64,000 nucleotides of DNA from Antedon mediterranea (lineage: Eukaryota > Echinodermata > Crinoidea > Comatulida > Antedonidae): assembly GCF_964355755.1 (NCBI RefSeq), contig NC_092670.1, positions 13,639,201 through 13,703,200 on the forward strand. Direction: 5' to 3'. The notes beneath the pieces were generated by a model. That model did no database searches, was not told where the DNA came from, and was given only the letters and a program-made list of their open reading frames with translations. The first letter of the stretch is position 1, and every line of letters starts with the position of its first letter. Shown piece after piece: positions 16,812 to 64,000 of the stretch. A program made the translations under genes and the position numbers.

Positions 16812-16854
16812 CAGTGCATAATACAACATACCATGTGTTTGTTTTATTCTTTTA

Positions 16855-24118: not shown

Positions 24119-24372
24119 CGGTGGGTTCTAACGCAAGGACGTACACCCAACGCAAACGAGTTGACCAATCACAAGCGAACGTTCGAATAAGCTTGATTCT
24201 CACTAGCGACGCAACGCAAGGGGGTAACGCAGCGCAAAGTGATGGATTATTCAAAATGTATTGGTCAACTCGCTTGCGTTGCATCTACGTCCTTGCGTTG
24301 CGTCGCTAGCGAGAACCACGCCTTTCGTTTCGCTTACGTCCTTGCGTTACTTCTCCTAGTGGGAACCAAGCA
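24119..24372. mobile_element. GTTCCCACTAG-family MITE carrying a nested copy (24188-24324)
   Basis: The outer element begins GGTGGGTTCTAACGCAAGGA and ends CTAGTGGGAACCAAGC. Inside, TTGATTCTCACTAGCGACGC ... CGCTAGCGAGAACCACG marks a complete inner copy at 24188-24324, so it was inserted into a relative. It abuts the previous MITE head to tail. Confidence 0.75.
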
Positions 24373-35059: not shown

Positions 35060-35335
35060 TCAGTTCTCACTTGAGGCGTACGGAAGCGCAACGTAAAGCT
35101 TGGTTCCCACTATGATGCAACGCAAGGACGTAAACGCAACGCAAGCGTGTTGACCAATGACAAGCGACAGTAAAATATATCCATCGCTGGTGATTGGTCA
35201 AATCCCTTACGTTGCGTTACGTCCTTGCGTTGTGTCTCTAGTGGGAAAGAAGCATAAGTGATTTCGCTCATCATTGGTCAACTCGCTTGCGTTGCGTCTA
35301 CGTCTTTGCATTCAAGTAGGAATATGGGTTAGGCG
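35060..35335. mobile_element. Nested GTTCCCACTAG MITEs: inner copy 35096-35252
   Basis: The inner element runs AAGCTTGGTTCCCACTATGA ... GTCTCTAGTGGGAAAGAAGC with TA on each side (35094-35095; 35253-35254). Outside it, CAGTTCTCACTTGAGGCG ... GCGCAACG on the left and AGTGATTTCGCTCATCATTG GTCAACTCGC ... AGTAGGAATA on the right rejoin into an outer family member. Confidence 0.75.
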
Positions 35336-44269: not shown

Positions 44270-45120
44270 ATATCAGGGATTGTGACGCCCTGTGTCTAAC
44301 TTTACTACTCAGATTCAATTGTTTTCAATGCTACAGAACCAGTCGAGAGGGGCTTAGATAGTTTTTGCACTGTAGATTGACTCAATTTGCACTTCCATCA
44401 ACGTCATGATTCTGTCTATTTCAATTAGGCCTATTAACCAACGTGTTTGTACGTGATTGGTTTCTTTATTCCATTTAACTTTGCTTTGAAACAGCCAGTA
44501 ATCTTCCTTTATTGAAAGAGAATTCCTATCTAACACCTTGTGCATGAGCATTATAATTATGGGCAACAGAAGCCATTTTCACTCAATTACCAACTTTCTG
44601 CTCCACTAGATGTGTACAAACTCCGGTAGGGGAATAAGATAAAAACTCCTCAACTAACAATCTCGGGCGAAGCTTTCCAAATTCACTCCTCCAAACTACA
44701 CCATCTATCAAAACAAATCTGCTTCTTACGTGTAAATTGAGTAAATGGTTGATCATAATGTTTACATAGGTTCCTTAATTCCTGTCGATCCTCTGGAAAT
44801 AACTCATAATCATGTTTTTTGAATTTCTATTGTTATTCTTTCAAATTACAAGTACCATAACAAAATGTTGTTTCCAAGTTATAGGTCCATTAAGTTTTGT
44901 GTCTTTTATTTCATCGTGCATAAAAAGACTAAATATATCTTATAGATCTGTTTAATCAGTGCAGAATCAATATTGATTTGTTATAAACAAACGTAATAAA
45001 TATATTTATTTCAAATATATACATTTTCAAGGGCCTTTTCAAGGAACGAACCCTGTAAAGTTAATACTATTACTACTAACAATTTTAGAACTGCATTAGC
45101 TGACCACTCCTGAAACATTC
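44270..45120. other. Intergenic upstream of the membrane-protein gene
   Basis: 44270-44720 may be more decayed retroelement (minus strand) but I cannot place it. 44720-45120 is AT-rich. A TATAAA at 45127-45132 lies only about 25 bases before the ATG at 45154, too close for a conventional leader; a promoter is not assigned. Confidence 0.3.
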
Positions 45121-45153
45121 CCGTCGTATAAATTGAACTCGCGTTTTGTAGCC

Positions 45154-46490
45154 ATGTTCTCGTATACGATATATGTTGTTTTGGCAATTGCTGGAATTAT
45201 CGGTTATGTCGAAGTAAGTCAATTTCATAATATTATCGTTTTATTTCATAATTGTTACGGTGCTGAAAAATACCCAGGCCCACCATACATGACGCTAGTT
45301 TTCCAGGCAAAGGGCACCAGGGTAGGCCTATATAAAGTTGCATTTGTGTTTGTTAGGTAGGGAGTTCTTCCTGGTTATACTATACAATGTTCACAATTTA
45401 AATATTTTAAATAAAATCACAGTAGAAGAATTATTATGTCCACCTCCACTGGTGGCAGTAACCCTAACAGTACATACTCTTTATTATCGTAAGTTATAAT
45501 TATCGTTATATAGTCATGAATATCAGATAAGTTAATGTACATTTTTTTTTCAAATATAATGAGAACATGCACGAAAATGTTGATACTATGCAGACTTTTT
45601 TTTCCGAAACATTATTTGTAATAATTACATTGTTAAAATAATAAAAAAATAAATAAATATTATAAAATAATTATATTGTTTGTAAAATAGGGAGCGCCGT
45701 CATCGAACGTGACTTGTTATTCTGACTCACGCTATGAGTATTATACGTAAGTTAAAGATAAAACCGTTTAGAATATCAAGATACGTACATTCAATAATAT
45801 TAATCAATTTTCTGCGGTGAGCCTATTGCAGCAGTGATCAAAATAGAATGACATTTAGTAATTAAAATAATAATAATTAATAACTAAATCAATTATAATT
45901 ACCATTACTATTTCCTTGTACCTATAATCCATTGTAGATCCATAATATTTATTATCACGTTATTAGCGTACTAACTTTTTTTTTACTAACAGCTGTTTGT
46001 ACGATCAGTATTGTTGTGCTGATTCGTGTTGCAACAATAATGGTAATGATAACAGTAGTTTTATTTGGTAAGTAAATTTTTAATTTTTAAAAACAGCACA
46101 GAGCAGTTTTAAACCGCCCGGGGATATACTGAAAAGTAATTATTTAATTTGAAACGATAAGGTGAGAACATCTATGAGAATGTAAAAAAATTCCCTCAAC
46201 TGAGATTCGAACCCGGAACCTTCAACTTGGTATAAAGATGTCCTAGTCGTTATTGTTCAAATTCGGTTGGATGGACTTGTACACACCCGAACCAGATATT
46301 AATTTGATAAATATACAAACAAAATATGTAGTTGTATCGATTCAAATGTCAATAATAATTAATACAAATAATATAATTGTTCCGTAGGTGGCCAATACTT
46401 GTATTCATTATCTTCTGTTTTTGTTGTGGCGGCTGCTGTCATGAGCACAAGAGGATTACACGAATTACGCAGATTGATATCATTGATTAG
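45154..46490 (+). CDS. Small Cys-rich single-pass membrane protein (WBP1/VOPP1-like), four exons
   Basis: Exons 45154-45213, 45691-45746, 45993-46067 and 46388-46490 join with consistent phases (0, 2, 2) into 97 codons. Donors are GTAAGT at all three introns; acceptors are AAATAG, ACTAACAG and CCGTAG. Residues 1-20: signal peptide (MFSYTIYVVLAIAGIIGY). Residues 21-62: ectodomain with NVTC, a probable N-glycosylation site, and the pattern C-x10-C-x5-CC-x3-CC. About 63-76: a membrane segment after a WW pair, then CCGGCC and a basic tail (HEHKRITRITQIDIID). The C-x5-CC-x3-CC spacing plus aromatic pre-TM and Cys cluster recalls the VOPP1/WBP1 class of small endomembrane proteins; that is inference. 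Intron 3 holds a SINE. Intron 1 contains another possible exon ending at 45489 before GTAAGT. No PPxY tail in this model; a downstream exon may exist at 48739. Confidence 0.6.
46090..46330 (-). mobile_element. tRNA-derived SINE, degraded copy in intron 3
   Basis: Shares AAACCGCCCGGGGATATACTG (21-base tail block written here in part), TTTGAAACGATAA and TTCGGTTGGATGGACT with the copy at 9102-9491. On the minus strand GGTTCCGGGTTCGAATCTCA is a good B-box/T-arm; the A-box side is eroded. It lies inside the intron between the Cys-rich and membrane exons of the small membrane-protein gene. Confidence 0.6.
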
Positions 46491-46525
46491 TTGATGTTTT
46501 GTTGCAACTACCAATAGTAATCACC

Positions 46526-46555
46526 TGTAATCACCTGTAATCACCTGTCTTGTCG
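46526..46555 (+). repeat. Three tandem 10-bp units AATCACCTGT
   Basis: Three consecutive copies of AATCACCTGT, immediately 3' of the membrane-protein stop codon and followed by CTTGTCGGGCTC and a GTAAGT. Confidence 0.8.
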
Positions 46556-46625
46556 GGCTCGTAAGTAGACCATACATTTCTGTATGGTACATGTCATGCC
46601 CTCCCAATTTCATCAAGTCATCACT

Positions 46626-48585
46626 GCATGGTTTGTTTTTTTTTTTGGTTTGTTTTTTTTTTCATTCGTTTCCTTGATTTAAATTCTTCTGCAATACACT
46701 TTATCCCATAAAAGTAAATTTGTTGTATTTTCTTTCAATGAATTTATCAAGTTTATTTTTAAAGGCGTTTACTGTGGTGGTGTTAACGGCTTCCTCTGGT
46801 AGACTATTCCATAGGTTAACAATTCTGTAAGAAAAATTGTACTTGCGGATATCCAGTTTAGGTCGTCGCTTATATATGGTGTATCTATGTCTTCTTAGGT
46901 TTCTCTCGTATGTTTTCATAGGGAAGAAGTTACGCATTCCACTACCACTTAGGCCTGTCACCATTTTAAAAACTTGAATCATATCTCCTCGTAATCTTCT
47001 AAAGGCCAATGTTGGTAGATTTAGTCGTTTTAGGCGTTCTGTATAATCCAAGTCTTTTAATGATGGAATTGCTTTTGTTGCCCTCCTTTGAACTTTTTCA
47101 ATGCATGTTATATCTTTACGAAGAAACGGAGACCATACACAGTTAGCATATTCAAGGTGAGGTCTCACTAATGATTTAAAAAGTGGAACAAACATTTCCT
47201 CATCAAGGTAGTTAAATGTATGTCTGATCAGACCAACAACTCTATTGGCTCTATTACTGACGATTCCAACGTGTTTGCTGAACTTGAGGGTCTGGTCAAA
47301 TATAACGCCCAAGTCTTTTTCTTCCTCTTTTGCCTGCAAAGCCTCCGCTGACATCGTATAATTGTACAATTCAAGGTTCCTGCCAAGATGCATAATGCAG
47401 CACTTATTGACGTTAAACTTCAACTGCCAAGTTTTTGCCCAATCGTTAGCAGCATCAATATCACGTTGGAGGGCTTCACAGTCAGCCCCACTCTTAATAT
47501 GATTGAACAGTTTGGTATCATCAGCAAACATCTCTGCGTGGGTTTCTAATATATCGGGTAGATCGTTTATGTAGATCAAGAATAGTATAGGTCCGAGGAC
47601 ACTTCCTTGGGGTATCCCGCTTGTAACATGGGACCAAGACGATAAGGTTCCTTTAATTGCAACACGCTGCTTCCTTCCAAGTAAGAAACATTCTATCCAT
47701 TTTAAAAGATTACCATTAATTCCATATGCTTGTATTTTTTTCAGTAGTCGTTGGTGTGGGACAGTATCGAAGGCCTTGCTAAAATCCAGGTATGCTACGT
47801 CTACACCACCTTCTTCATCAATCATAGCTGTCCATTTATCAAGTACCATTATCAGTTGTGTTACACATGATCTGCCTGCTCTAAATCCATATTGATGGTT
47901 ACTTATAAGATCGTTGCCTTCCAGAAACATCATTAGATCATCTCTGATTAAGGATTCCATTACTTTACATATCACTGATGTCAAACTGATGGGCCTATAG
48001 TTGCCTGGATTAGTAGGGTTGCCCTTCTTAAATATAGCGGAAACATGAGCTACCTTCCAGTCGTCAGGAATGATACCTTCCTTTATGGATTTATTAAATA
48101 TGTTTGTTAGTGGATCAGCGATTAGTTCTGCTGCTTCTTTTAGTACACGTGGATGTATGCTGTCTGGGCCCGGAGATTTTGAAGGGTTTAGACTCATCAG
48201 CTTCTTTAGGACTTGCTCTCTTGAAAATGCTAATGTGCTCAATGGTACACCATTATATCTATTTGTAAGTTCTGGTACATCGGATATGTCTTCACATGTA
48301 AACGTGCTACAAAAGAAATTATTCAAGATAAAAGCTTTTTCTTCATCATTTTTTGTTTTAGACCCATCAGGTTTAGTCAGGTGGCTAATTCCACACTTTA
48401 TCCTTGTTTTAGACCTTACATAATTCCAAAAGCATTTTGGGTTAGTCTTAACTTCTTTTGCAAGTTTTTTCTCAAAGATCCGTTTAGCTTTCTTTGACTC
48501 CTTTGAAGCTGCATTTCTTAATTTTGTATATTTCTCATAATCTTTGTAACAAGATGAGTAAGTAGTATTATATTTGAAATGTCCA
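46626..48585 (-). mobile_element. 5'-truncated LINE (jockey/CR1-type) inserted 3' of the membrane-protein exons
   Basis: The coding part is described separately. On the minus strand the ORF ends at 46701 and is followed by about 40 bases and an A-rich tail (A10-CAAACC-A11 as read on minus; poly-T at 46632-46662 on plus). Homology fades near 48575, leaving no endonuclease or ORF1, a typical 5' truncation from incomplete reverse transcription. It lies between exon 4 of the small membrane-protein gene and a possible further exon at 48739. Confidence 0.8.
46701..48575 (-). pseudogene. LINE reverse transcriptase ORF (no endonuclease), open frame intact
   Basis: The frame is open from about 48575 to 46701; no true start is needed because the 5' part is missing. 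Counting from 48326, motifs are: NYRPISLT (about 110), QYGFR (145), DFSKAFDTVPH (181), SGIPQGSVLGP (236), FADDTKL (267, catalytic Asp pair), KTWQLKFNVNKC (fingers/thumb) and a C-terminal RRATKAIPSLKDLDYTERL block followed by a basic region. This order is that of jockey/CR1-superfamily LINEs. The RT copies LINE RNA into nicked DNA. No stop within about 620 codons suggests a young insertion, but without endonuclease it cannot be autonomous. Confidence 0.9.
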
Positions 48586-48738
48586 CAAGTATGACAAAGT
48601 CAATAAAAATAATGAATATAAAGACGACACTGATTACAAGATGATGAACACACTTATGGTGATGATGATAATGATAAACGGTGACTACGACAATTATGAT
48701 ACGAACGACAAGGTATTTATGGGCAGTTTCAAATATAG

Positions 48739-48790
48739 ATGTTGGCGACAACACAAGCATGTGCTCCACTTCCCATCATATACCATGGTA
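48739..48790 (+). other. Possible additional exon of the membrane-protein gene, or a duplicated tail exon
   Basis: After a weak acceptor (AAATATAG) the sequence ATGTTGGCGACAACACAAGC ... CCATCATATACCATGG resembles the tail exons at 56523 and 62257 (GACAGCACAAG, CTTCCC/CCGCCC, CATGGTA). In the matching frame it reads ATTQACAPLPIIYHG. The similarity is short; alternatively it is a chance or intronic match. Confidence 0.3.
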
Positions 48791-48809
48791 GTTCTATAAA
48801 GAATTTAAA

Positions 48810-49080
48810 CGGACTGACGACGACGTTAATACTGAAGACAAAGTTATTAGAACTGACGAAGAAGAAGAAGACTGAAGGTGAATTCACTAGACTTACGGAC
48901 AAGTTGCTAAGACCGAGGGAGAAGTTAAGAAGACTGACTAAGACGTTACTAAGAATAATGAAGAAGTTACTAAGACTTATGATTAATTTTCTGAAACCAA
49001 GGAACAGTGACATTATGGAACTTTTCCCTGTTAAAACTGACAAAGACTGACGAAGAAGTTACAAAGAATAACAAAGATGT
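48810..49080 (+). repeat. Degenerate AAGTTACTAAGACTGACGAAG minisatellite
   Basis: Repeated words GACGAAG, AAGTTACTAAGA, ACTAAGACGTTACTAAGAAT. It gives a Lys/Leu-rich frame on plus and a hydrophobic frame on minus; both are artefacts of composition. Confidence 0.6.
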
Positions 49081-49084
49081 TATT

Positions 49085-49885
49085 ATAGCAAATTTGGGAA
49101 ACTAAATTATAGTTTATACACAATACCATCTGGAGTAACCCGGACTCCACTACAAGGACATTGAATATCAATAGATAATTATACCTACACTATAGTGACC
49201 TCAACAAGTGACAGTTGATGGATGGGTTTGGTACTGCCTCCTTTAAGTCTACTTTTTAAGGAGAATTGGTATTTTACACAAGGTTACCGTACTAATAAAT
49301 TAAACTTAAAAGACTAGGCGACATATTTATAAAAACAGGTGTCCCTATCAAATAGATCAGATTGACTATACATAGTATAACAAACTGGACATGTATCATT
49401 GATGTTACAGCAACTCGCTAGCATCAGTCAGATTTTATTTTCCCACCCAACCATCCCCATCATCATCCCATCTTACTATTATGGTGCTACTTAGCTAGTC
49501 GTTCAATTGGGCTGGTATAATTCTTGACAATTATCTCGCCCCCAATAAAATATTATATTCCACGTAGGCCTACTCGGTACTAATAATTTACCGACACTCA
49601 GTGGAATTCACCTGGGTCCTACTCAGGTCTCATAAAATATCCGTAACACAGCGAACTAGTATGACAAGAGTAGCCCCCGAAATAGCCAAATAACAATTAA
49701 GAATTAAATTATTTAAGGTGTGTAGATCACAGTAGTAGCATAAATATATAATACATAAATAAGCAATAATTACTAAGGTATTTTGTTATTGAGAGTAAGG
49801 TACCACGGCAGTGGCTGGTATTAAATATATAATAAATGTTAACCGATGTATTACTGTACTTATATGGTGTTGTGTATAAAAAATG
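49085..49885. other. Unit A 3' part, no exon recognised
   Basis: Between the minisatellite and the duplicated 3' segment; ordinary sequence without supported coding. Confidence 0.35.
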
Positions 49886-49889
49886 AAAC

Positions 49890-50100
49890 AATAATACCAC
49901 AGGAACAGGATAGGTCCGAAAAACTACATCATTCTACCAAGAAAAGAATTATAGACAGACACCAGTGAATACAATACCAATAAGACTTCCCCTAAACACG
50001 CCATTGATATGTTTTTCTGCATAATACATGTGTGTATTTTCTTTTTGTCTAGATTGCAAATAACAAACAAGTATGGCGGCAAAAGTACATACACAGACTA
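49890..50100 (+). repeat. Duplicated 3' segment, unit A copy
   Basis: Colinear with 56360-56570 and 62085-62300: a GGTCCGAAAAACTACATCATT-like block, then CACCAGTGAATACAATACCA, TTTTTCTGCATAATA, a pyrimidine tract ending in AG, and AACAAACAAGTATGGCGGCA. In units B and C the corresponding end codes a tail peptide; here the matching frame has an early stop. Confidence 0.6.
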
Positions 50101-50129
50101 TAAAAGTACAATTGGCTTTATATATTTCA

Positions 50130-50320
50130 ATGTTTGCGTAGAGGATTGCCGATTATTGTTAACGATAGCATCGAAAAACGATGAAATGTTAACGATTTAC
50201 AGGAAAATGTACTCGATATCGTTATCATTTCAACTTGATCGTTTTCAAGCGATCGAACGATCATCGATTAACTGTTAACGATCAACGACGATAGCGTCGA
50301 ATATCGTCGACAGGAAAACA
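50130..50320. repeat. CGAT/ATCG-rich patch
   Basis: About 190 bases with more than fifteen CGAT or ATCG words, including TTAACGAT in both orientations (GTTAACGATAGCATCG, ATCGATTAACTGTTAACGAT). May be a decayed foldback element; no clear borders. Confidence 0.5.
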
Positions 50321-50324
50321 GGCT

Positions 50325-50690
50325 TTAGCGTTGCGATATCGCTGGAGTTGAACTGGATTTAACTCTTGCGATTATCAAGGATAGCGACTTAACGTCAATT
50401 ATTACATCTTTTCCTGTAAATCTCCGAAGTTTTGTATTACCATCGTTAGTTAAAAAAGGTACCTTTTTCTGTAAATCGTTTGATTTCTTAATTAATTCTA
50501 TGTCTCCTGTGTCAAAAACGGAATTCAGTTTATTAATTAATTTATTGACTGTACAATTAAACCAGGGGTTTTGATTAGGGTACACTCTAACCTTCACAGT
50601 GGGTATACACAGATCCTCACAAAATCTTATATATGACACTATACAGTCTCTGTACAAATCTTATTGTCCTGCAATTAACATGGATCTCCA
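50325..50690 (-). pseudogene. LINE ORF2 fragment: endonuclease-RT linker
   Basis: The minus-strand frame reads YRDCIVSYIRFCEDLCIPT, then NQNPWFNCTVNKLINKLN, the linker between endonuclease and RT in many LINE ORF2 proteins (S-Y-I-x-F-C-E-D-x-C-x-P-T ... N-x-x-P-W-F). It stays open to 50325, but nothing after residue 60 resembles RT, so it is a short rearranged scrap. Confidence 0.6.
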
Positions 50691-50766
50691 GTCTGTAGAT
50701 TCCAAGCACCCTTGTAATCTTCCCGTGATTATAGAACGGATTACGTGACGTATGCTGTGTTTGCTA

Positions 50767-50947
50767 AAGCTTGGTTCCCACTAGAACGTAACGCAAGGAC
50801 GTAAACGCAACGCAAGCGTTTTAACCAATGACAAGCGAAGTTATAGACAGTTAGCAATCACAAGCGGATAAGCCATCGCTTGTGATTGGTCAATTCACTT
50901 GCGTTGCGTTACGTCCTTGCGTTGCGTCGCTAATGGGAACCACGCTT
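50767..50947. mobile_element. GTTCCCACTAG-family MITE, complete copy with TA flanks
   Basis: 181 bp, AAGCTTGGTTCCCACTAGAA to GTCGCTAATGGGAACCACGC TT, with TA at 50765-50766 and 50948-50949. It is the best-preserved copy in the window and matches 16627-16811 in inverted orientation, including CCAATGACAAGCG and CGCTTGTGATTGGTC. Confidence 0.9.
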
Positions 50948-51364
50948 TAGGTTAGGTATATACTTTTATCTTTTAATTATAGTCCTACTGAACAATTCAT
51001 TCCGACACATTTCTACTCCATTAGGATAAAGCGAAGATAATTAATCACTTATACGTTTAATTTACACGAAATTATTGTTGACAGTTAATTACACAATTAA
51101 CTTCCGAACACTCGAAAAATTGAATAACGTGACATCGTAATAAGTGTATAGGTTCCTAGAAATGCGTGCGACTTTAATATAACCTGCATGTTGTGAGGAA
51201 ATAACATAGCCATACCCTGTTGACCGAGGCGAAGAAGAAGCGGGGTGCTGGAGTTGTAATAGGTAGCATACATTGTATATCGTCATCATATCCCCTTTAT
51301 ACTAAAATGATACACATAAATTGACGCACGTAATCAAAAAGGAAAGGACTAATTACGGAACTGC

Positions 51365-51430
51365 TTGTTTGGCCAAATGATTTACGTTGCGTCGTACGTA
51401 TCTGCGTCTCGTCCTAGTGGGAAACTTCCA
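51365..51430. mobile_element. GTTCCCACTAG-family MITE, right-end fragment
   Basis: TTTACGTTGCGTCGTACGTA ... GTCCTAGTGGGAAAC matches only the right end of the family. Confidence 0.5.
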
Positions 51431-51852
51431 CTTACGATGTTAAAACTGTTAATACATATTGCATCTGATTGTCTGTATACTTTTTTTTTATACACGGTGT
51501 TTTGAGATTACTTATTGACAAATGCATATACACAGGCATCACAAGGTGATTGAATAGACACCTACTGTATAATCATAAAAATGTAATAAAAGACCAAATT
51601 GTGTTTCAATAAATTTGTTATAATACATATACATAATACATTGTTTTAATTGGTCAATTTTTAACGTTGACCCCTTATATCTCGATTCATATTAAAAATG
51701 AATATATAGGCTAGTTGAATTGCTTCCTAGATAAGAAAGGAATTATTTCCGCCAATAAGAACTTTAACACATAATACGATTGACACCATAAAAGTTGGTT
51801 CATGTTTTGTACTTTGTACTACTTGCATTCATTTTAATTACATAATGATTAG

Positions 51853-52194
51853 ATGTACACTATTTATCTCATGATATCACTGTACTCAAGCCAACTGGCC
51901 AACACTCATGTAGTATTTCACACCGATAACCTACCCAATGTCTATCATGTTAACAGCAAAACTAGTTCTAATTCTGATGTAATGCGCATAATCAGGCCGT
52001 TAGTGTTAGTATTACTTACACATAATATACATCTAACCGCCAGGCATATACCAGGTATTAAAAATATAAGTGATGCAATTTTCCGTTCACAGATAAAGCA
52101 AAAACTTCTCAAACAGTTCGGAATGCATCAAAACCCATTAACAATACCACCGCATCTGCTACCAGAGAACTTCGCTGCATTCAAGAAAATCTGA
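51853..52194 (+). pseudogene. DIRS-type RNase H domain, C-terminal part
   Basis: The first residues are not conserved; from about residue 18 it reads HVVFHTDNLPNVYHVNSKTS, then MRIIRPLVLVLLTHNIHLTA and RHIPGIKNISDAIFRSQ. This is the end of the RNase H fold of DIRS elements (TDN, K/N-S-T/S, RHIPG-x-N-x-xD-A-x-S/F-R). Catalytic Asp residues of the N-terminal strands lie upstream and are lost. The frame ends at 52194, overlapping the recombinase frame by 50 bases or more. Confidence 0.8.
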
Positions 52195-53057
52195 TAAGAG
52201 CTTCCGTCACGACTGGAACCAGAAAATCATACAACAGGGCGTGGTCAACCTTACTTATGTTTCTACAAAGCCACCACCTACCACATCAAATGCCTATCTC
52301 ACCACCCCACATCTCACTTTTCGTCTGCCACCTCTTTCGGACAGGTCTCAACCAAAATACCATAAAAACGTATCTAAGTGCCATTGCATTCATGCACAAA
52401 ATTACCAACAACCCAGACCCTACTACCATACCATTGTTAACTATTGTCACAAGAGGTGCTGGGAAGCTATACAACGTTGCCAGCCGCCGCCGACGCCTTT
52501 ACCCGGTTACCACTACTATAATGGCGAAGCTTCTCGCTCAACTCAAAGTTATTAAGAGCAACAAATACGAAAGGAACCTTTATAAAGCTTTGTTCTTCAC
52601 CTGTTATTACTACGCTTGTGCGAGAGCAAGTGAAATGGTACGGACCAATAATCCGGAACACGTCCTAAAACTGCGCGACATTACCATATCACACGCTAAT
52701 GTTACCTTACAATTTAAATCCTTCAAACACCACAAGGGCAAATCCCAACATTTCAGCATTAGCAAAAAAGGAAACAGCATATTATGCCCGGTACAGGCGT
52801 TACAGGATTACAATTCGATCAGGCCTACGACTCGGAGGCAATTTTTCATATTTCAAACCGGAGCTCCACTACTTAGGAAACATTTAAGTCATACGTTAAA
52901 AGAAGCCGCGTTACACGCCAACTTAGACCACACCCGGTACAACACTCACTCGTTCAGAATCGGAAGAGCCACGCAACTTAGGGACCTGGGCGCAGGTGAA
53001 CAAGAAATTAAAGCTACCGGAAGATGGAAAAGCGACGCATATAAACGATATATCTGA
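52143..53057 (+). CDS. Tyrosine recombinase of the DIRS-type element
   Basis: The first internal ATG is at 52257, but conserved coding starts earlier: the frame is open and homologous from about 52143 (TRELRCIQENLIRASV, then TGTRKSYNRAW, the usual N-terminal core-binding start). Numbering from 52257: core-binding region 1-75; catalytic Arg in CARASEMV (R123); HSFRIGRAT gives the H-x-x-R pair (H231, R234); GRW (W257) and the nucleophile Tyr in KRYI (Y265). All expected catalytic positions are present. The enzyme would integrate the circular cDNA of the element. It overlaps the RNase H frame in another phase, as is usual in DIRS elements. No stop or frameshift seen, so this ORF could still make protein. 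Confidence 0.85.
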   Translation, partial: NTTASATRELRCIQENLIRASVTTGTRKSYNRAWSTLLMFLQSHHLPHQMPISPPHISLFVCHLFRTGLNQNTIKTYLSAIAFMHKITNNPDPTTIPLLTIVTRGAGKLYNVASRRRRLYPVTTTIMAKLLAQLKVIKSNKYERNLYKALFFTCYYYACARASEMVRTNNPEHVLKLRDITISHANVTLQFKSFKHHKGKSQHFSISKKGNSILCPVQALQDYNSIRPTTRRQFFIFQTGAPLLRKHLSHTLKEAALHANLDHTRYNTHSFRIGRATQLRDLGAGEQEIKATGRWKSDAYKRYI

Positions 53058-53247
53058 CCCCACTGCATAACTCTTAGTAATGACTAATAAAAATGTACAT
53101 TTACATTATAACTCACTTACATCCATGCGTCTATTTATGTTTTTTTTTCCCTTTAGTATTGTTTATTGGCGATGTGTTAGTACAACTTTGCTCCCATTGC
53201 AGTGCACGGTAGTGGAGCCCTCGGATTAGCCTTGGGTGGAAGGTGCT

Positions 53248-53300
53248 GATGCTCAACATACTGCCATGAAGTATCTGCGTATACTTTCATGGGGAGCATC
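53248..53300 (+). repeat. Compound hairpin in the DIRS 3' region
   Basis: Outer arms GATGCTC (53248-53254) and GAGCATC (53294-53300). The inner stem is CCATGAAGTAT (53264-53274) against ATACTTTCATGG (53281-53292), with one bulge and a six-base loop CTGCGT. Confidence 0.8.
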
Positions 53301-53783
53301 GTTGTATTAATGGTGATTTTTGTACCTATCAGTCTCTTTGAAGACATTTCCATTTTGTCTCAGTTTCATGTGGGTAAGTTGTTGTTTCCTGCACTTTGGT
53401 GGGCTGCTCTTGGCGGTGCCTTGGCACCTGCCACGGGCTATTTTTCTCTGAGCATCCCTGTTGTGCTTACTTAGAATTGGAAAATTATTGCTATATAACT
53501 TATATTTGCTTATGACTTTTATGTGCAGTTTTACATGGGCGAATGTTAATTTACTAATAAACTATTTAAGCCAGAACTTATGTTGTATGCATCTTTATTT
53601 GGTATTCTATGAGTTTGTTAATTTCCGCTGTCTCTGAGTAGCAAAATAATGATTGATTATACACCCGATTCTTTAACCGTTACTATGTACTGAACTAGAG
53701 TTACTCCTCACTTATCATTTATATTTATGTCTGCTGTATTCCATTCTTGTTTTGTTATTTTGGAAATCGCGCATAGTGCAGTG

Positions 53784-55956
53784 ATGTTACCGTATACTTT
53801 TTTCGTCGTATTTGGAGTAATCAGTTGTATAACAGTAAGTATAATAATTACAACCATGGTTTAGTAACTTGGCATATCGGTTTCTTGAAAGTAAATCTTT
53901 GTAGAAAAAAAAATGAATCATAATGCTGTAATAGTATACAAATGGAAACGTTTGTAAGTCTATTCTCCATTATTGAACACTACCAAATTAGTTATTAGCC
54001 TATTATGAATAAGTATAATTTTTGTATCGGTACCTATTGTTAGGCCTCATTGAATTTTTAATCGGGGTAAATTATGATTCTAACTAATTGCTTAATATAC
54101 ATATTATCGGAGCACTTGAGAGGCATAGCAATTTCTTCAATAAAGATTGGTTTAGAAATACCCCAAACAATACGTACGTTAAACTGCATTTTGTTTCAGT
54201 GAAAATATACATAGCCTAGATACAAAAAACGGCTGAGAAAATGTAACAGGCATTAAACTATACCAATGTATACGCCTTTTATCACATTGAAATAATAATA
54301 ATCATGACATTAAAACTACAATTTTATTTTATTTTAATTTTATTTTATTCCATCGAAACCAACAGCGATGATTACCGCCACTAACAGGTTTGATACAAAC
54401 AAAGTAATGACTGTTTAAAGCACCTTGATTGGTCCTAACATTGATTAAGGGCTTCTTTCGTCCAGTGTCCACCTTGACCAGAGGAAAGGCATGGGCCAAT
54501 ACGTCTGAGGCAGATACTAGATGCAGGGGCTGCCATAAGAGTCAGCAGTGCTGATTTCAAATGCCTAACAGGACCCCAGCTCCATATACAGCACCCGATA
54601 TTCCCGGATGGTCTCCTATCAAAGCTCTAACCAGGCCCAACGTTGCTTAACTTCGGTGATCTGACGAGAACCGGTATTTCAACGTGGTAAAGCCGTATTA
54701 GCAAATGCAGGAGGAAATCGCCAGGGTAGCAACTAACATAGGATGCAAAATATCGAATGAGCAATAAGTGATATGGGTGTATAATTACAAAACTATTGTT
54801 ATTAGTATTACTTTGGTAATTATTGTTTTAATGAATGGCAACATTGTTGTTTTTTACAGGTTGCCATTCGTATACGACCTGTACTGACTCACGTAATCGG
54901 CTTTATACGTCAGTTATGCCTTGATAGATGCGTTTATACGAACACAGACGCGGGTTTCTGTTTTTCATTTATAATGTTGCGCATGTGGCGGTGACGTGCT
55001 CGTTCATTCCGATGTTCATACCCTTTCCGCCGAAGCTTTACATCTGCCTAATTATCTATGCTGTCTATGCATTACGGCAGCTCATATCCGTAAACTGTCT
55101 CATAGTTACTTAAATGAGGCACTACTTACAGATATCTATTAGTTATTGTGTACGTGTCTATTCTAACTATCTAATAAAAGTTTTAAATGTACTTGTGTAT
55201 TGTGTTAGTTCAAAAGGGAATCAGTTAGTAAATATTAATTATTATATAATTCTTATTATTATTATCATGTTTGTCAGGTGTTGTATTGTTGTTATGATTC
55301 ATGTTGCAACAACAATGACGATCAGAACTATGGGTGGTACTTTTGGTAAGCCAATGCCTTCAAAACCAAAAATATATCTAAATACCAATGCTTTTATAGA
55401 AGTTAAGTTTTGATTCGTTTTATAAACTACATTTTATTACTGTTGCTCAAAAGGTTTTTTATTTTTCTGTTATTGGCAATAACAAATTGAAAAAAAATAG
55501 GAAACAATAATTATAATAATCAATGTCATTTAGTAAAAAAAATCATTTTATAAATGGAATGGTGTAAGATGAATGCTGGACGGTTAATAATTAATGATGA
55601 TGATGTAATTGTGATGATAACGACAAAAATATATAATTATACTAATAAACTAATACTACTAATAATAATGTTACAAACGGGTTTTTTTGCAAGAGGTGCG
55701 TATGTTCGTTCAAGTCTGAACATGTGAGGAACATGTAAATTAGATTCAATTAATTTTTTGTCTTATTATTTTTTTTTTAAATGATAAGTAATTATTTATT
55801 TATTTGTTTTTTTTTTATTGTACCAATTACTTTTATAACATTTGTTGTAGGTTTTTACTTTGTTTAATATTAACATTAGGCCGTGCAATAGGCATAAGAA
55901 TCACTAGTATTAATTATTACAAATCAACGGCAAATTGTATTTGCTGTATGTGTTGA
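53784..55956 (+). pseudogene. Paralogue of the small Cys-rich membrane protein (unit B), possibly broken
   Basis: Four exon-like blocks match unit A: signal exon 53784-53834 (MLPYTFFVVFGVISC, then GTAAGT); 54860-54908 after TTTTTACAG (TTCTDSRNRLY, then GTCAGT); 55278-55345 after TTTGTCAG (VLYCCYDSCCNNN, then GTAAGC); 55851-55956 after TTGTTGTAG (W-FLLCLILTLG, tail with IRITSIN, stop). Each aligns with its unit A counterpart in position, border and sequence. With the obvious donors the phases clash at junctions 1 and 2. They fit only with alternative, weaker donors (GTATAA at 53839, GTTATG at 54913). Either splicing differs or small indels have broken the gene. One of the paired cysteines of unit A (before YCC) is missing. 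A 5S-like sequence lies in intron 1. Confidence 0.5.
54585..54700 (-). pseudogene. 5S rRNA-like sequence, diverged
   Basis: Read on the minus strand it follows animal 5S rRNA from TACGGC-like start to the GGGTGCTGTA end: GATCACCGAAGTTAAGCAAC (A-box region), GGGCCTGGTTAGAGCTTTGA, TAGGAGACCATCCGGGAATA (C-box) and CGGGTGCTGTAT. Length about 116 against 120 for 5S. Several changes fall in helices, including TTTGATAG for the usual TTGGATGG, so it is not a normal gene copy. The 140 bases 3' of it (54440-54583) are GC-richer than the surroundings, which would fit a 5S-derived SINE (SINE3 type) or a retro-copied 5S. Confidence 0.75.
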
Positions 55957-56359
55957 ATAATAAAGGTGATCCGGTAAGGTCTACTCGTAAGTACGTTGAA
56001 AAAGACGACAGTTAATTATTGTTTATGAGTTATGACGAAAACATTTGAAATGATGACAACGCATATGATTATGAACGCAAATAAGGAATGGTAATGAATG
56101 ACTATGATGATAAGAAGAACTGTTTGTAAACCAACAATGTGTACTGCTAAAAAAAACAATTGCTTTGTCTTAATTATGCCAAGCAAAATGAATTTCCATT
56201 TTTTAAATACAATTTTTTTAATCGAGAATCTTTAATGTTGTCAATATATATTTGTTTATATTTCCTTTTCACATACCACAGTCGTTTTAGGCCTACAGAT
56301 AGGTTACCATAATAACTGACGAAGATAAGACTGTACGAAAGTATACAAATTACAAATAC

Positions 56360-57300
56360 AACAGTAACGGGGAAGTCCCAAAAAATTCCATCATTTACAA
56401 ACACTGAACAAGAGTAAAAAAAGGACACACCAATGAATACAACATCAATTGAACACCTCCATCCATCAATAGGCCTAAATCAATACTAATTTTTCTGCAT
56501 AATATTTTTTTTTTTTTTAAAGTTTAGTATGACAGCACAAGGATTTGTTCTGCTTCCCCCATGGTAAACGCATCTTACCAATTTTACAAAAAAAAAAGAA
56601 ATTATTTTGGGTTATATCTTTATTCAGCTATTCCAAATAATGTTGTTTGATTTCGGGTTCTGATAGACAGCACATGCTTCTATATCAGATCAGAACCATT
56701 GTATTACTATGATTTTAAATTATAACTATATAACAAAAATATAAACTCAACCCATAGTTAATGTGAATTTCAGAAGGAAGGAATATATATAATCTTGATA
56801 CTCAGATCAATAGTTTATATTAAAATATCTTTATACGCAGAATGTTAGATTATTATTGACATAATTATTATGCTAATAAAAATTTCAAATAAAAAAAACA
56901 TCAAATTGTATAAATCATTATACAATTTCATGTGTTACGTTTGCGGCAGAAATTCAACCCAAAAAGTTGGCTGAAACATGTTAGCTTTTGCCTGTTGATA
57001 ATGTTGACCTATGTATAACCATGTAGAGAAATTGTATAATTGTGTGCATGGTAACACTTTATATAGGCCTAATGTATGCCTATAAAGATAATTATTATGT
57101 ATCTATCATTATAGTGTTTTATGAATCAACATTGTTTCAATAACATAAATGAATTGTTTATCCTATTAAAACATGTTAAAATGCTGTTTATATTAAACAC
57201 GCTGTGTACATAATTTATTGGGTTTTTTGTTTGATAGTTAGCAAAAAAATTACCTATAACATTGTATTAAATCGTGTAAATTAGCTCCCATATTTTTTCA
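56360..57300 (+). repeat. Duplicated 3' segment, unit B copy, with tail exon-like block at 56523-56567
   Basis: Matches 49890-50100 and 62085-62900. After the pyrimidine tract the frame reads SMTAQGFVLLPPW then stop, against SMTAQVSVLPPSHG in unit C. Further 3', TATTAAATCG and a palindromic ATTGTATAA...TTATACAAT pair (B: 56907-56930; C: 62868-62889) are shared. The tail peptide would be a short cytoplasmic end with a di-proline. Confidence 0.6.
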
Positions 57301-57320
57301 ACCCTTATCATAGAGAAAAG

Positions 57321-57358
57321 TCGACAACGGCAAGCAAAAAAAAATCCCCCGTTGTCGA
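57321..57358. repeat. 10-bp-stem hairpin
   Basis: TCGACAACGG (57321-57330) is exactly complementary to CCGTTGTCGA (57349-57358). GAGAAAAGTCGAC stands both at 57313 and 57357, so the hairpin is bordered by a 13-base direct repeat. Confidence 0.75.
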
Positions 57359-57821
57359 GAAAAGTCGACACTTAGACTTGCTTAGACATAGGTTTAGATA
57401 TACAGATATTTAAATACCTTCCAACCCTCTAACGTTTGGAAAATAAATCTATGAGGTCAAGGGATAAATTTGCTTTCGAAATATGGAAACCATTATTTGA
57501 AAATACTTCATAAATATCATTTGGACCGGAAACAGATGATTTTTAGTCGCGTGGAAGCGACTCTATAGTTCACTATGTCGGTCAGTTGGTCGGTCTGTCT
57601 GTCTGTCGGTCTGCCTGTCGGTCTTTCTGTCTGTCTGTCGGTCCGGTATCACTATGCGTTTTATCGCTTTCTGACATTATGTTGATATCAGTTCAATCTA
57701 GCTAGGTCAATTTTTCACAGTATATTCCTTATGGCCAGGAATCAATGTGGTTATGTTTTCACGGTGCGCAATAAAAAATTACGCGGTCTACGCACGATTT
57801 AACGAAATCACGTTTGTAATC

Positions 57822-58535
57822 ATATCTTGACAACCATGAATCACAATTAAATAAAATTTGGTACTCATAAATTTCAGGGCATAAATCATCATATGGCAAT
57901 ACAATTACGTGCGTAGCGCATGTAACGCATGCGTACGCGCGCTTAAAATTTTCAAAATTTATTTTCGATGAAATAAGAGTACATTTCAGGCAATTTTAAG
58001 CGTTTACAAAATTGCCATGAGTGCGCATATTTTTGCGCGTTAAATGTTATTGTGCACTCTTTTTGCCCGATTTCTGTTTTCTTGACTTACTTTTCAACTC
58101 GAAATTACGTTATACGAGCACGTCGAAAGTGACAGGCTACGCACGTGTAAATTAAAAAATATAAATGTTTTTAAACAAATATCTTCACAACCATGAATCA
58201 CAATTAAATAAAATTTGGTACTCATAAATTTCAGGGCATAAATCATCATATGGCAATACAATTACGTGCGTAGCGCATGTAACGCATGCGTACGCGCGCT
58301 TAAAATTTTCAAAATTTATTTTCGATGAAATAAGAGTACATTTCAGGCAATTTTAAGCGTTTACAAAATTGCCATGAGTGCGCATATTTTTGCGCGTTAA
58401 ATGTTATTGTGCACTCTTTTTGCCCGATTTCTGTTTTCTTGACTTACTTTTCAACTCGAAATTACGTTATACGAGCACGTCGAAAGTGACAGGCTACGCA
58501 CGTGTAAATTAAAAAATATAAATGTTTTTAAACAT
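57822..58535. repeat. Two virtually identical 357-bp direct tandem units
   Basis: 57822-58178 and 58179-58535 match base for base as far as I can read, apart from TTGACAACC versus TTCACAACC at the start. Contains AATTACGTGCGTAGCGCATG and GCATGCGTACGCGCGC. Confidence 0.9.
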
Positions 58536-58582
58536 TTCAACATTTTTAAACATGTTCAGTAATTTCGGTCAGTATAGTTCAC

Positions 58583-58665
58583 TATGTCGGTCGGCCGGTC
58601 TGTCTGTCTGTCGGTCTGTCTGTCGGTCTGTCTGTCGGTCTGTCTGTCGGTCTGTCTGTCGGTCC
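58583..58665. repeat. (GTCG GTCT GTCT)n microsatellite
   Basis: Pure GTCT/GTCG tetramers; a shorter partner stands at 57585-57645. The apparent Arg/Cys/Ser and Asp/Arg/Gln frames on the two strands are artefacts. Confidence 0.9.
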
Positions 58666-58699
58666 GGTATCACTATGCATTGTAGCACGCGACTTAATG

Positions 58700-60700
58700 G
58701 CTTTGGCCTTGTTTTTAATTGGTTGTAATTACGATCGCATAGTATGTACATAGAACCCGCTAATTGATGTGCGAGGAACTTTAAAGGGAAATTTGACTAC
58801 GCAATGTGAAGCTATGCCAAGGCATGTAGCGATAGAAATAAATCGTTCTTTAGGCCTATAGCCTTGAAGAATGGATTGACATAGGCCTAGGCCTAGACAA
58901 ACCGGACGGCAAGGTAAGACTAGTTTATAATTTCACATAAGAGCATGTCTTTTTTTGCTTAGATAAATGCACATATTTATTTTATAAATGAATCAAATAC
59001 TTATTATCAAATGTTTATATTTCGTGTTTTATTAGTGACTTTGACTATGACTATTTGGAATACAAATTTGCTGAGCCTACTAGGCCTAGCCAACAACTGT
59101 TAATCTTTTAATCTTTCAAAGATCGACTGATCTTTATAGAACTATTAAATATCTGCCAATCCATCTTGAATCGAATGAAGAAGATTATATCATTGAAAAA
59201 AAGGCGGGCGATTTTAGGTCGTAGACTAGTGAAAGAGACTAAATACACCATAAACGGTACATTGCAACTACGAGGAAATTTATTGGGTTTCGATCGCACA
59301 TATACGCATTAGATCAAAATCAAAAGCAAGTATTATACTTTTGTTTGTTATAAATTGACGTAAATTGACATATTTAATATTTCATTTGACATTTACGACA
59401 ATCTACTTGTATAATTCAAAATAAAGTTTAAAATTACACTTTCTAAACTGAATGTTACTATATGTTATAATCTATATATACATTATGGTAGATTCTGACA
59501 TAGGCGAGCACAATGGTAAAACTTCGGTACAAATCTCTGCCTTGGATACCTACCTAATCTATCTCAGATGTACCGTGAAATGTAAATTTGAAAACATTAG
59601 TTTTCACTATAACGATATTGTTCCATATTTCTATCTTAGGAAGATATTATAAAGGATTTTATAACAACATTTTTTAATTCATCAGTATATTTTCAATTCA
59701 ATTTCAATTGAACGCGGGTCGAAGTAATTTCCGGGTTCACGATAAGTTCACATGTTCACATTCGGATCGGACCGCGCGTGTGAGGATGAAGGTACGGTAG
59801 TTAAAAAATAAAAATTGTACTGCAAATTAATAAAGATCATATTAAATACACGCCATAAAGCATCGGAATATATTGTAGGGAATAGTATTATAAAATTACA
59901 TAGGGAGATCTGATGAAATCACGATAGCCGAGTTTTATTGAGTAAGCTGGCAGGTATAACTGTAGGCTCCCTGTGTCCCGTGCGTTAGGACCGGGATGTC
60001 TGCCTATGTTGCAAGACGTCTAAAACGTCTTCCTTCTTAGGCCGAAACGGCCCACTCTGTCGCGGAAGTTAGTTTCAAAAGATGTTTAAATTAAATAATG
60101 TATTAATTATTAGGATGACATTTATTTGAATAAACGCCTCCCAATAAAACATCACTTTGAATAATAATCCACACAATATTGTATTATATTTATAGTAACA
60201 CAATGATACTATTTGTAGTAGAATTCATCGCACTGTTATCTACAATTTACCAAGCATTTTTGTTATTCTTTTTTACCACTTTTCATATCTATTAGAGGAT
60301 TTTATTTGATTATAAATGTTACTTATGCTGTTATTATTAAAACGAAAACATATCTCTTGAATAAGCACCTCCCTCAAATGAACTCCGCCTCCTCACCTCA
60401 GCCCTATAAAAGGGCCCTACCAAACAATACACACTATGCCTACTTTAAAATGTTATTAATCATCGAAGACACTGTGAAACAGAGTAGGTTTAGTTTTACG
60501 AATGTCAGGCATTTTCAATAATGGTAACCGACAGTAAACGTACAAGGAGAACGTCCTTTTTACCCGAGTCATTCCGAGAACCATCGTCTACACTTCCTAG
60601 TTAATAGTAATATTAGTATACGCGAAAGCTATACGATTTATTTCTGGATATTTTACTTCAATTACATTTTTGCTTATTTTATTTGTATCTCTATTTTGCC
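58700..60700. other. Unit B 3' flank and intergenic
   Basis: 59280-59430 (GGGTTTCGATCGCACATATA, TTTAATATTTCATTTGACAT, TTACGACAATCTACT) matches 63090-63250 of unit C. AGCCCTATAAAAGGGCCC at 60400-60417 is a textbook TATA box, but no exon with supporting signals follows. No other feature recognised. Confidence 0.4.
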
Positions 60701-61163
60701 TTTTTATTGAAATAATTATCCATAAAGCATCGGTATTTTCTAGTTAGACATTGATATGTCGATATACAGTTACAGTCGCGTTCGAAACACGTTAGCCTAA
60801 AAACGGTTCAACAAAATTAGAACTCTCGACACACGTTTAATTTACCCCTTTGATATATAAACTATAATATGGAAATGGCAATATAAAAGTTGATATACAG
60901 GTGGCCTTCCTGAACCACCTGGATCAAGCGGTGGTGGAAATCGTCGATTTGCGTGAATTCTGTTTTGTATGTTGACAGACACCACACGTCCTGAACGTTT
61001 TTCTGATCAAATCAAATTATCAGAAACAATTATTTCTTATTTAACTTTTACTTTTACAAATTTGGTTTTCGGGTTCTAATTGCTTTCTTCTTCATTGTTG
61101 TTGCAATCATAGGCACCGTTGTCTGTGCTAAAATAGGGATGTGTTGTTTGTATTGCAACATTT

Positions 61164-61736
61164 GCTGTAATTCACACCAAAACTCCGGAGTGTCTCCGGA
61201 GACACCTCGGGGTTTATGACCATTCAAAACGTCGAAAAACTCCGGAGATACCCCTTTCACACCAATCTAGCAACACCGGGGTTTATAAAATAAAATTGTA
61301 AATGTCGCCCTCTATTTTGTTTGTTTACATAGCGACGATCAATAGAATAATTTTAATTAACAATATTTTTAATTTAATAATTACTTTCAAAAGTCTCAGA
61401 AATAATATAATGTTTTATTGATACTAGTTATTATTTTTTAAACCCGCTATATATTTTGTACAGATATTTAAAGTATTTTGAAATAAAACTAAAGCAATGA
61501 GTGATCGTGTGAGGATGACCTTTTGACCCGAAACACTCCGGAGTTTGATGTTGGTACCTTTCACACCAAAACACCGGGGTGTCCCCGCAGTTCACTCTCC
61601 GGAGAATGTTCAGCTGTTCAACCCCGCAGTTTTAAACTCCGGAGTTGCTTGATTTTACCTTTCACACCAAACAGCGGGGCGTCAACTCCGGGGTGTCTCC
61701 GGAGTTTTGCTTTTGGTGTGAAAGGGGTACAAGTGA
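61164..61736. mobile_element. CCGGAG-rich element with TTTCACACC modules
   Basis: Begins TTCACACCAAAACTCCGGAG and ends CTCCGGAGTTTTGCTTTTGG TGTGAA, so its ends are inverted. Inside, TTTCACACCAA followed by CCGGGG or CGGGGC recurs in direct orientation near 61256, 61559 and 61658. CTCCGGAG palindromes occur repeatedly, while the centre (61300-61500) is AT-rich. No reliable target duplication. It is much richer in GC than anything around it and non-coding. It could be several nested copies of one short element. Confidence 0.65.
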
Positions 61737-61871
61737 TGCGGCATGAGTAAGTAACGTTTGATAATGACGACAGTTACAATGTATTGTATAAGCTGTCATT
61801 GAAATGGTGACAATGCATAAACAATGCACAAACATTGAACGAATGATACAGTGACAAATGACAAATTGTAA

Positions 61872-61970
61872 GGGTGTCTAGAAAACTCAGATCTCAGATA
61901 TATCTAAGTTTTCTAGATCTAGAAAAACTCAGATATCTGAGTTTTCTAGATCTGAGTTTTCTAGACACCC
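61872..61970. mobile_element. 99-bp near-perfect palindrome (foldback MITE) with 9-bp target duplication
   Basis: Opens GGGTGTCTAGAAAACTCAGA and closes TCTGAGTTTTCTAGACACCC, palindromic nearly throughout, built of CTAGA and CTCAGATAT words. AAATTGTAA stands directly outside both ends (61863-61871 and 61971-61979). A 9-bp duplication fits Mutator-like transposases; the family is inference. Confidence 0.9.
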
Positions 61971-62084
61971 AAATTGTAAAACTAAAAACATGTTCAATAT
62001 TAGGTATATCACCAGCTTTCCACAAATAACTTGTTGTCAATATACAAATATTTTGTTTTATTTCCTTCTCACAGCATTGCAGAT

Positions 62085-62900
62085 ACAACACTAAAACGGG
62101 GAAGGTCCGGGAAAATCCATCGTTCTTTAGTTAAGAAGTTGAAATAGAGTACACATACAGTGACTTACTGGTACTACACCAATGAGATACCTACCCCAAA
62201 TATTCCAATAATGTTTTCGGCATACTACTTTGTATATTTTCTTCATTTTTTTTTAGCTTCCAACCGAAAAACAAGCATGACAGCACAAGTATCTGTTCTG
62301 CCGCCCTCACATGGTATTATCGTCTTACCAAATAAGGCTGAATGAAACACTGAGTGACATTTAACATAATAATGAAACAGCAATATCTTTTCTAAAACAA
62401 AATTATAGATACTTTGTAAATTTAGTAAATTAGATTGTTTGTTACGTGACGTTTGCGGTTATAAATGCCCTGAATAAAATAATTTTCTGAAGTAGGCCTA
62501 TAAGTAAAGTAAAGCATTTTTCTGGTTAGGATCATTATGTTTTTGTGATTGTCAAAATGGCATATTGGCTGACAGTGTGTGAAAACAATTATACAGGTCT
62601 TGTTGGACTTTTCGAAACAAACACATTAGAAATAGTTATGATTGTTTGCCGTGTAAATGCATTGTAACCCAGAATTGTTAGTGTCATTATGAATGACCAT
62701 TGTTTAAATAATAGGTTAGGCATATAGATATTTTAAAATAAAATGTGGACAATTATGCTATCTGTTTTACAGGAAAATATGCCTACTGTGTATCGATTGT
62801 GTGTTTGGTTGATAGGCCTAATTAGAGAAGAAAGTACCTTATGTATTAAATCGAAAAAGCTCACACATTGTACGAATTATTATACAATGTTTCTGAGTTG
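62085..62900 (+). repeat. Duplicated 3' segment, unit C copy
   Basis: Matches 49890-50100 (unit A) and 56360-57300 (unit B): AAAACGGGGAAGGTCCGGGA, ACCAATGAGATACC, the pyrimidine-tract acceptor, and the tail exon. Downstream GTTACGTGACGTTTGCGGTT (B: TGTTACGTTTGCGG), ATGTATTAAATCG and the ATACAATG block follow. Confidence 0.7.
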
Positions 62901-63434
62901 ATATTTCAAGTTAATCTTTCAAAGACTGACTTATTTTAAAGTAGGCCTAAATAAGTAAATAAAGTAAATGGATCCGCGGTGTGATCCATCTTTAATCGAA
63001 TGTCGAAGGCAAGGCCATTCGAAAACTGCGTTCTTTTTTGCACATGAGTAGTAGTAGAAAATGAGAATGAAGAATCGACAATAGGATTGAGTTTTGATCG
63101 CGCATTATACTTGTGTTTAAAGATGTGACCATTGAAATCGAAGAAAATAACAAATAATTGAAAAATAACAACCATTATTATTATTTAGTTAGAAATAGAA
63201 ATTAACAGAAATATTAAATATTTTATTTGAATATTGACGACAATCTATGAAAATATATTGTTTATAATAAAATGTATTACACTAAATAACTACAATTATA
63301 TTGTATCGTTTCAGTCATTTTTCTTTTGATTGATAAGCATTGATATAATAATTATATATAATGTATATAAAGAATTAGCATTTTTCTGGTTAGACATGGT
63401 CAAGTAATATAGGATCTTCATGGTTATACCATTG

Positions 63435-63658
63435 TCATGTTTCGGCGTCCTGGATAGGTGCACCAGGTAATGTGAACACAATTGGCCTCGCTGGACACGT
63501 ATTCTGTCGTCTGATCCTTGTCCCACTCAAGTCTTCTGTATCGAATCTCTGTGAATTTGTTGTTTCGCTTGGAGACATTGATATAATTATATCCCTTCTA
63601 ACCTCTTGTAAAACGTCCCAGTAAGAGGGCGGGGGTGAGTTTGGTGGACGAAATGCAT
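63435..63658 (-). CDS. Terminal exon with PPPSY motif, gene continues beyond the right edge
   Basis: On the minus strand a T-rich tract and ATTCAAAG acceptor (63659-63660) precede an open exon of 224 bases ending in TGA at 63435. It reads FRPPNSPPPSYWDVLQEV, later MSPSETTNSQRFDTEDLSG, RIRRQNTCPARP and IVFTLPGAPIQDAET. PPxY (PPSY) is the ligand of WW domains and is common in cytoplasmic tails of small membrane proteins bound by NEDD4-type ligases. The polar, Pro/Ser/Thr-rich composition suits such a tail. The upstream exons lie past 64000. Whether this gene belongs to the same family as the plus-strand units cannot be told. Codon-like composition and lack of stops support real coding. Confidence 0.5.
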
Positions 63659-63689
63659 CTTTGAATATAAAGGAAAAATACAATATAAT

Positions 63690-64000
63690 AATAGGCCTAT
63701 ATCAATAATTAAGTATATTCATATCAATAAATACAATGAATACAAAATCATGTTTGAATATTAGATATTAATCTGATTAAGTGACTATGTCAATAACGTC
63801 TTAAAAGAAGACAATTATACAAAAATGTATACAAATAATAAACTCAATACAGCTGGTATACCGTCGATGCAAATTTAAAAATCCTTCGACACATAATTAT
63901 TGGTTTGATGCATAAAGTTACAGCGCATTCAAAACCTGATCACGTTCGGTCACGTTTTCGTTTAATAGAAACGATAATTAAACTATAATGAAAAGTAGAA
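63690..64000. other. Window edge, intron or start of a further repeat unit
   Basis: TAAAGTTACAGCGCATTCAAAACCTGATCACG at 63915 (in part) resembles ATACAGTTACAGTCGCGTTC GAAACACG at 60766, hinting that another tandem unit begins. It also lies in the presumed intron of the minus-strand gene. Confidence 0.3.

Follow-up and report, generated by a model that had tools for sequence, protein, structure and literature searches.

We identified a 25-kb cluster of six units (A to F), probably all copies of a single gene that encodes a small one-pass membrane adaptor of STMC6 (WBP1/VOPP1/CYYR1) type, with D and E open and standing head to head, A and B tail-less, and C and F reduced to remnants. The cluster appears to consist of adaptor genes of a known kind, most of which are decaying. 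Tiny exons that lay hidden in raw sequence now carry a family name, and the site would provide a local example, within the STMC6 group, of duplication followed by tail loss and decay.

The stretch of DNA analysed (the window) comprises 64,000 nucleotides and corresponds to positions 13639201-13703200 of contig C1 in a genome of 354 Mb on 18 contigs. Twenty flanking pieces were joined with the window, giving a region of 262 kb, and coordinates above 64000 carry the window numbering on to the right. The splice models of the units were made by hand and selected for openness. The units and their exons are as follows.

45154..45213, plus strand: A exon 1, hydrophobic signal-like segment MFSYTIYVVLAIAGIIGYVE with donor GTAAGT, phase 0 (splice model and hydropathy)
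45691..45746, plus strand: A exon 2, containing the first Cys, phase 0 to 2; matches D and B
45993..46067, plus strand: A exon 3, CLYDQYCCADSCC core, phase 2 to 2; matches B and D
46388..46490, plus strand: A exon 4, membrane helix, Cys-rich juxtamembrane part and terminal stop, no tail
46701..48599, minus strand: LINE-type reverse-transcriptase ORF of 632 aa (Pfam RVT_1, 126.8 bits), between the membrane exon and the tail relic of A
49874..50115, plus strand: A tail-exon relic, together with the relic of the preceding 3' end of intron 4; matches B and C
53784..53834, plus strand: B exon 1, signal-like segment MLPYTFFVVFGVISCIT (splice model and hydropathy)
54860..54908, plus strand: B exon 2 relic, 49 nt, out of phase; partial match to A
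55278..55345, plus strand: B exon 3, LYCCYDSCCNNN core, acceptor phase unlike A and D
55851..55956, plus strand: B membrane-type exon with terminal stop (sequence match and hydropathy)
56341..56600, plus strand: B tail-exon relic, together with the relic of the preceding 3' end of intron 4; matches A, C and D
59322..61005, minus strand: F, which copies E in part (81.8% identity between 60852-61005 and E 63973-64112; 66.7% between 59322-59463 and the E 3' flank 63164-63306)
61065..61746, plus strand: C membrane exon, no AG at the expected start, donor GTAAGT at 61747
62076..62345, plus strand: C tail exon (62257-62345, SNRKTSMTAQVSVLPPSHGIIVLPNKAE) preceded by the 3' end of intron 4; matches A, B and D
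63435..63658, minus strand: E tail exon with a PPPSY motif (PPSY), from the hand splice model
64017-64177, 65146-65208, 65377-65408 and 65870-65935, minus strand: the other exons of E, beyond the right edge of the window
67665-70269, plus strand: D, five exons, open model of 171 aa, splice sites GT-AG, phases 0-2-2-1

The relationship between the units was analyzed by pairwise same-strand comparison of five spans (A 45000-46700, A-tail 48600-50330, B 53600-57400, C 60900-63250 and D 67500-70600), which were picked after earlier self-matches were known. With low-complexity filtering on and a threshold of E ≤ 0.01, seven of the 10 comparisons gave matches, 15 altogether. One common order was kept by 14 of these, and the sole match out of order was weak (B 56887-56936 with C 62848-62899, E 0.004). 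Over the same 10 comparisons, two matches (E 0.003 and 0.005) were obtained when one partner was reversed and none when it was reverse-complemented. The best matches were A 45977-46077 with B 55253-55355 (70%, 1e-9), A-tail 49874-50040 with B 56341-56518 (67%, 9e-13), A-tail 49904-50087 with C 62095-62291 (66%, 1e-14) and B 56349-56581 with C 62076-62331 (61%, 3e-12). Two pairs of 3' segments (49874-50040 with 56341-56518, and 56349-56581 with 62076-62331) were also visible in a self-comparison of the window. As judged by these alignments, the repeat in 45-64 kb and beyond is real and the units are homologous. The strongest matches among A, B and C lie in approximately 180 bp of non-coding sequence at the end of intron 4 (49874-50040, 56341-56518 and 62095-62291).

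The initial annotation had proposed that three 3' segments align in the same order, and the 14 collinear matches among 15, obtained alongside the controls, bear this out. It had further described units A, B, C and perhaps D in the window. The repeat itself stands, but the count has to be revised to six units in two orientations (A, B, C and D on the plus strand, E and F on the minus strand), with D located outside the window at 67665-70269. Both D and most of E came to light on extension to the right of 64 kb, where a search for more units had been suggested. The units do contain repeated short exons of the signal, Cys-rich, membrane-helix and tail types, as described, except that the signal and Cys exons of C were not found. 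Likewise, the flanks at 59.3 and 63.2 kb match each other (59322-59463 with 63164-63306: 66.7%, 2e-10), but they are members of the minus-strand units F and E.

It is almost certain that the matches are not simply a dispersed repeat or shared low complexity outside any gene family, the case named at the outset as one that would undo the proposal. The region is repeat-rich and F contains a dispersed repeat, but the collinear matches follow exon order despite the low-complexity filter and survive the controls. Five exon profiles built from the cluster units, which match their source units by construction, found no further unit in the 262 kb; outside the units they gave one match, at 48747-48783, with E 0.15. 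Their remaining matches were to their own source units, to the exon-2 copies in D and to F (E 1e-4), and since F is absent from the profiles it counts as a single independent recovery. Across the genome, proteins A, D and E recovered mainly themselves: all four rows for A were its own exons, nine of the 15 rows for D were its own exons or exon-2 copies and six lay elsewhere (E 1.5e-4 to 3.7), and four of the five rows for E were itself, the fifth being F; these searches missed the other plus-strand units, so that distant copies elsewhere would escape them. Four of the outside loci found with D (L030, L031, L036 and L037) looked unrelated by eye in translation, including two with E < 0.001; the minus-strand matches at L031 and L036 were read on the plus strand only, and L038 and L039 were left out.

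In the spliced model of D, a hydrophobic segment at the N terminus is followed by C*C*CC*CC, then by the membrane helix and a basic stretch, and finally by a tail that carries two [L/P]PxY motifs, PPPY and PPSY. D scores 43.5 bits (E 5e-11) with Pfam WBP-1, over the cut-off of 28.1 bits, and also matches DUF1179 and TMEM51, both below cut-off. A single membrane helix is predicted (19-residue hydropathy 2.63 at residue 63), and the N-terminal segment FLLKLVEIVSLI is weakly signal-like, with a 12-residue mean of 2.27 and internal K and E. Exon 2 of D sits where a tandem repeat with a 94-bp unit and 5.1 copies ends (68108-68586 in window numbering; L002:4108-4586). Copies of this repeat hold an acceptor and most of exon 2, and by reading the sequence the donor GTAAGT was found at the expected place in the last copy only.

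Unit E (65935-63435) can be read as an open model of 181 aa in five exons. By reading frame, the phases of D are matched by exons 1 and 3 of E and at the beginnings of exons 4 and 5; the phase agreement is partly by construction, as exon 2 (32 nt) was chosen among seven candidates that had been required beforehand to fit and exon 4 was likewise given an end that suits these phases. E was assigned to the cluster on the basis of these phases and of the similarity of its exon 3, for which tblastn gave E 1.6e-4 to B and 0.005 to A. The helix is hydrophobic (19-residue mean 2.58) and the tail carries a motif of the [L/P]PxY type (PPPSY). The protein stays below the WBP-1 cut-off (16.5 bits vs 28.1) and does not contain the full C*C*CC*CC, CEGCEEGDESCC missing the middle CC. 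A second exon-2-like stretch, seen by eye and lacking a GT donor, is present in E near 65340.

D was placed with the STMC6 adaptors of NEDD4 ligases because it passes the WBP-1 cut-off, and A and E, which are below it, were placed by homology to the other units. The STMC6 group is given as WBP1, WBP1L/OPAL1, VOPP1, CYYR1 and TMEM92 (PMC11399591), and WBP1L is described with C*C*CC*CC and [L/P]PxY (PMC6991692). WBP1L is reported to lower CXCR4 and to bind NEDD4-family ligases via WW-binding motifs, and CYYR1 to bring WWP1 to late endosomes; both proteins are given as PPxY partners of NEDD4-family ligases (PMC6991692, PMC11399591). The cluster shares with this group the Cys-rich C*C*CC*CC ectodomain, the one membrane helix and the PPxY tail, and D passes WBP-1. 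Differences are that the ectodomain of the cluster is spread over two short exons, that the copies are clustered, that E lacks the middle CC and that A and B are tail-less. The Shisa proteins are also described as combining a Cys-rich ectodomain with one helix and a proline-rich tail, but A, D and E have no Pfam match to a Shisa family. A wider Shisa-like set is said to have been described by Pei and Grishin in 2012. Membership in CYYR1 (PF10873) was considered and rejected, since Pfam searches with A, D and E gave no match to this family; a CYYR1 profile search of the genome gave one sub-cut-off match on C4 and none in the cluster. Among the matches listed in the literature search, no paper title concerned such a cluster in an invertebrate.

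A genome search with WBP-1 gave three matches, two of which are STMC6-like exons on other contigs. The first (G000:C4:2141314-2141475) scores 29 bits, 0.9 above the cut-off, and resembles the cluster in having C*C*CC*CC followed by LW. It differs in that all six Cys lie in one exon, that it is located on another contig, that its donor is ambiguous and that no other part of its gene was seen; a reading in which this exon ends in the phase of exon 3 was dropped because of that donor. The second (C8:24735463) is a membrane-tail exon with PPSY and PPPPY and, at 25.4 bits, is under the cut-off; a bacterial control genome likewise gave a WBP-1 signal below the cut-off. The third match, C8:3248440, was rejected as low complexity by eye.

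The proteins of D and E would present their short Cys-rich domain to the lumen or the cell exterior, with the PPxY motifs on the cytoplasmic side. By analogy with these adaptors, they may tie a WW-domain ligase to membrane cargo selected by the helix or the ectodomain. Expression, topology, disulphides and ligase binding are predicted features of the cluster proteins.

Unit A gives an open four-exon model of 97 aa with GT-AG sites, carries C*C*CC*CC and has a hydrophobic helix (19-residue mean 2.26). It falls below the WBP-1 cut-off (11.8 bits, E 0.39, vs 28.1) and lacks the [L/P]PxY tail motif, its stop lying inside the membrane exon. The tail relic of A lies approximately 3.5 kb downstream, past the reverse-transcriptase ORF at 46701-48599; in the tail-exon relic, which starts at 50053, the third codon after the acceptor is a stop in the expected phase. 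For B, no choice of exon 2 or exon 3 fitting the phases of A and D was found, and an open model of 74 aa is obtained once exon 2 is skipped. The tail relic of B has a short frame, SMTAQGFVLLPPW, followed by a stop, and does not keep the expected phase. Complete or partial, a signal-like segment and a Cys core persist in A and B, but both units lack the tail.

Instead of being a relic, A could encode a protein that is expressed without a tail. That A, and possibly B, function as tail-less decoys or modulators of D and E which have the Cys ectodomain and helix in common with them but cannot recruit a ligase seems unlikely to us: the open models of A and of exon-skipping B and the few non-synonymous changes in their Cys cores are what such proteins would show, but the hydrophobic stretch of B is weaker (19-residue mean 1.87), its exons 2 and 3 misfit in phase, and decayed tail relics persist in both units, as loss predicts. 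Less likely still is a self-regulating set in which the head-to-head PPxY adaptors D and E are accompanied by A, and possibly B, as tail-less sister proteins with the same type of cysteine ectodomain and as natural decoys limiting ligase recruitment to the membrane.

The remnants C and F lie next to each other. The membrane exon of C is split by a transposon at about 61171-61732. When 40 of the 358 candidate matches of this transposon were scored, 39 further ones proved to be long and 94-98% identical; given this identity, the insertion looks recent. The exon profiles detected no 5' exons (signal and Cys) of C in the 262 kb. In F, a dispersed repeat at about 59452-60600 sits between the two E-like parts, and no 5' exons were found. 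The end of F and the start of C both fall within 61006-61030, and a single deletion at this boundary could have taken the missing 5' halves of both units. At the level of sequence, the homology of the units, the open splice models of D and E, the Pfam membership of D and the lesions of A, B, C and F are established.

The initial annotation had interpreted the array as a tandem expansion in which the ectodomains diverge rapidly, as in families of recognition proteins or secreted ligands, and had suggested a dN/dS comparison of exon pairs. In hand-aligned blocks of the Cys core (12-13 codons, with one D codon omitted and a gap at the first B position), pN/pS was 0.10/0.44 for A-B, 0.22/0.65 for A-D and 0.18/0.80 for B-D; pN was thus below pS in all three pairs of this tiny sample, which points to constraint on the Cys core. 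The membrane exons were near saturation at synonymous-type and nonsynonymous-type sites alike. Non-coding matches longer than 100 nt were 61-69% identical and exon-centred matches 65-70%, figures which cover detected segments only and leave more diverged ones uncounted, so non-coding sequence aligns about as well as the exons. Rapid divergence of the ectodomains is not what these values indicate, and much of the divergence between the units is decay, in the form of tail loss, phase loss, absent 5' exons and transposon insertion.

A recognition array was the interpretation considered first and was dropped on the PPxY tail of D and its WBP-1 match. It is now very improbable that the units form a recognition or secreted-ligand family in which positive selection drives the ectodomains apart. 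The low identity to D (27% for A and 24% for E) fits such a family, as would the short proteins without a signalling tail expected from A and exon-skipping B, but the substitution pattern of the Cys core, the saturation of the membrane exons, the similar identity of non-coding and exon-centred matches and the PPxY-type WW-binding tails of both D and E argue against it. The case for a recognition locus at this site is lowered, and STMC6-type adaptors remain the preferred reading.

Several other elements were observed in and around the cluster. Between A and B, a tyrosine-recombinase ORF is present at 52074-53054 on the plus strand (Phage_integrase, 27.2 bits vs a cut-off of 27.1), which by eye perhaps derives from a DIRS-like element. 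The segments 57788-58177 and 58137-58534 form a duplication which is 95.7% identical and has a short simple repeat close by; a stretch resembling it was seen by eye at C1:35572494 (L031). A dispersed repeat of approximately 200 bp occurs at 16627-16831, 24130-24339, 35094-35258 and 50750-50950, in both orientations and with roughly 62-93% identity. To the right of the cluster, L011:609-983 contains a 7tm_2 exon (50.9 bits) from a seven-helix receptor of the secretin family. Approximately 100-110 kb to the right, two death-effector-domain ORFs and a Helicase_C exon (L012:6365-6679, L013:6595-6930 and L013:2582-2902) were found, a set which by eye resembles RIG-I-like receptors.
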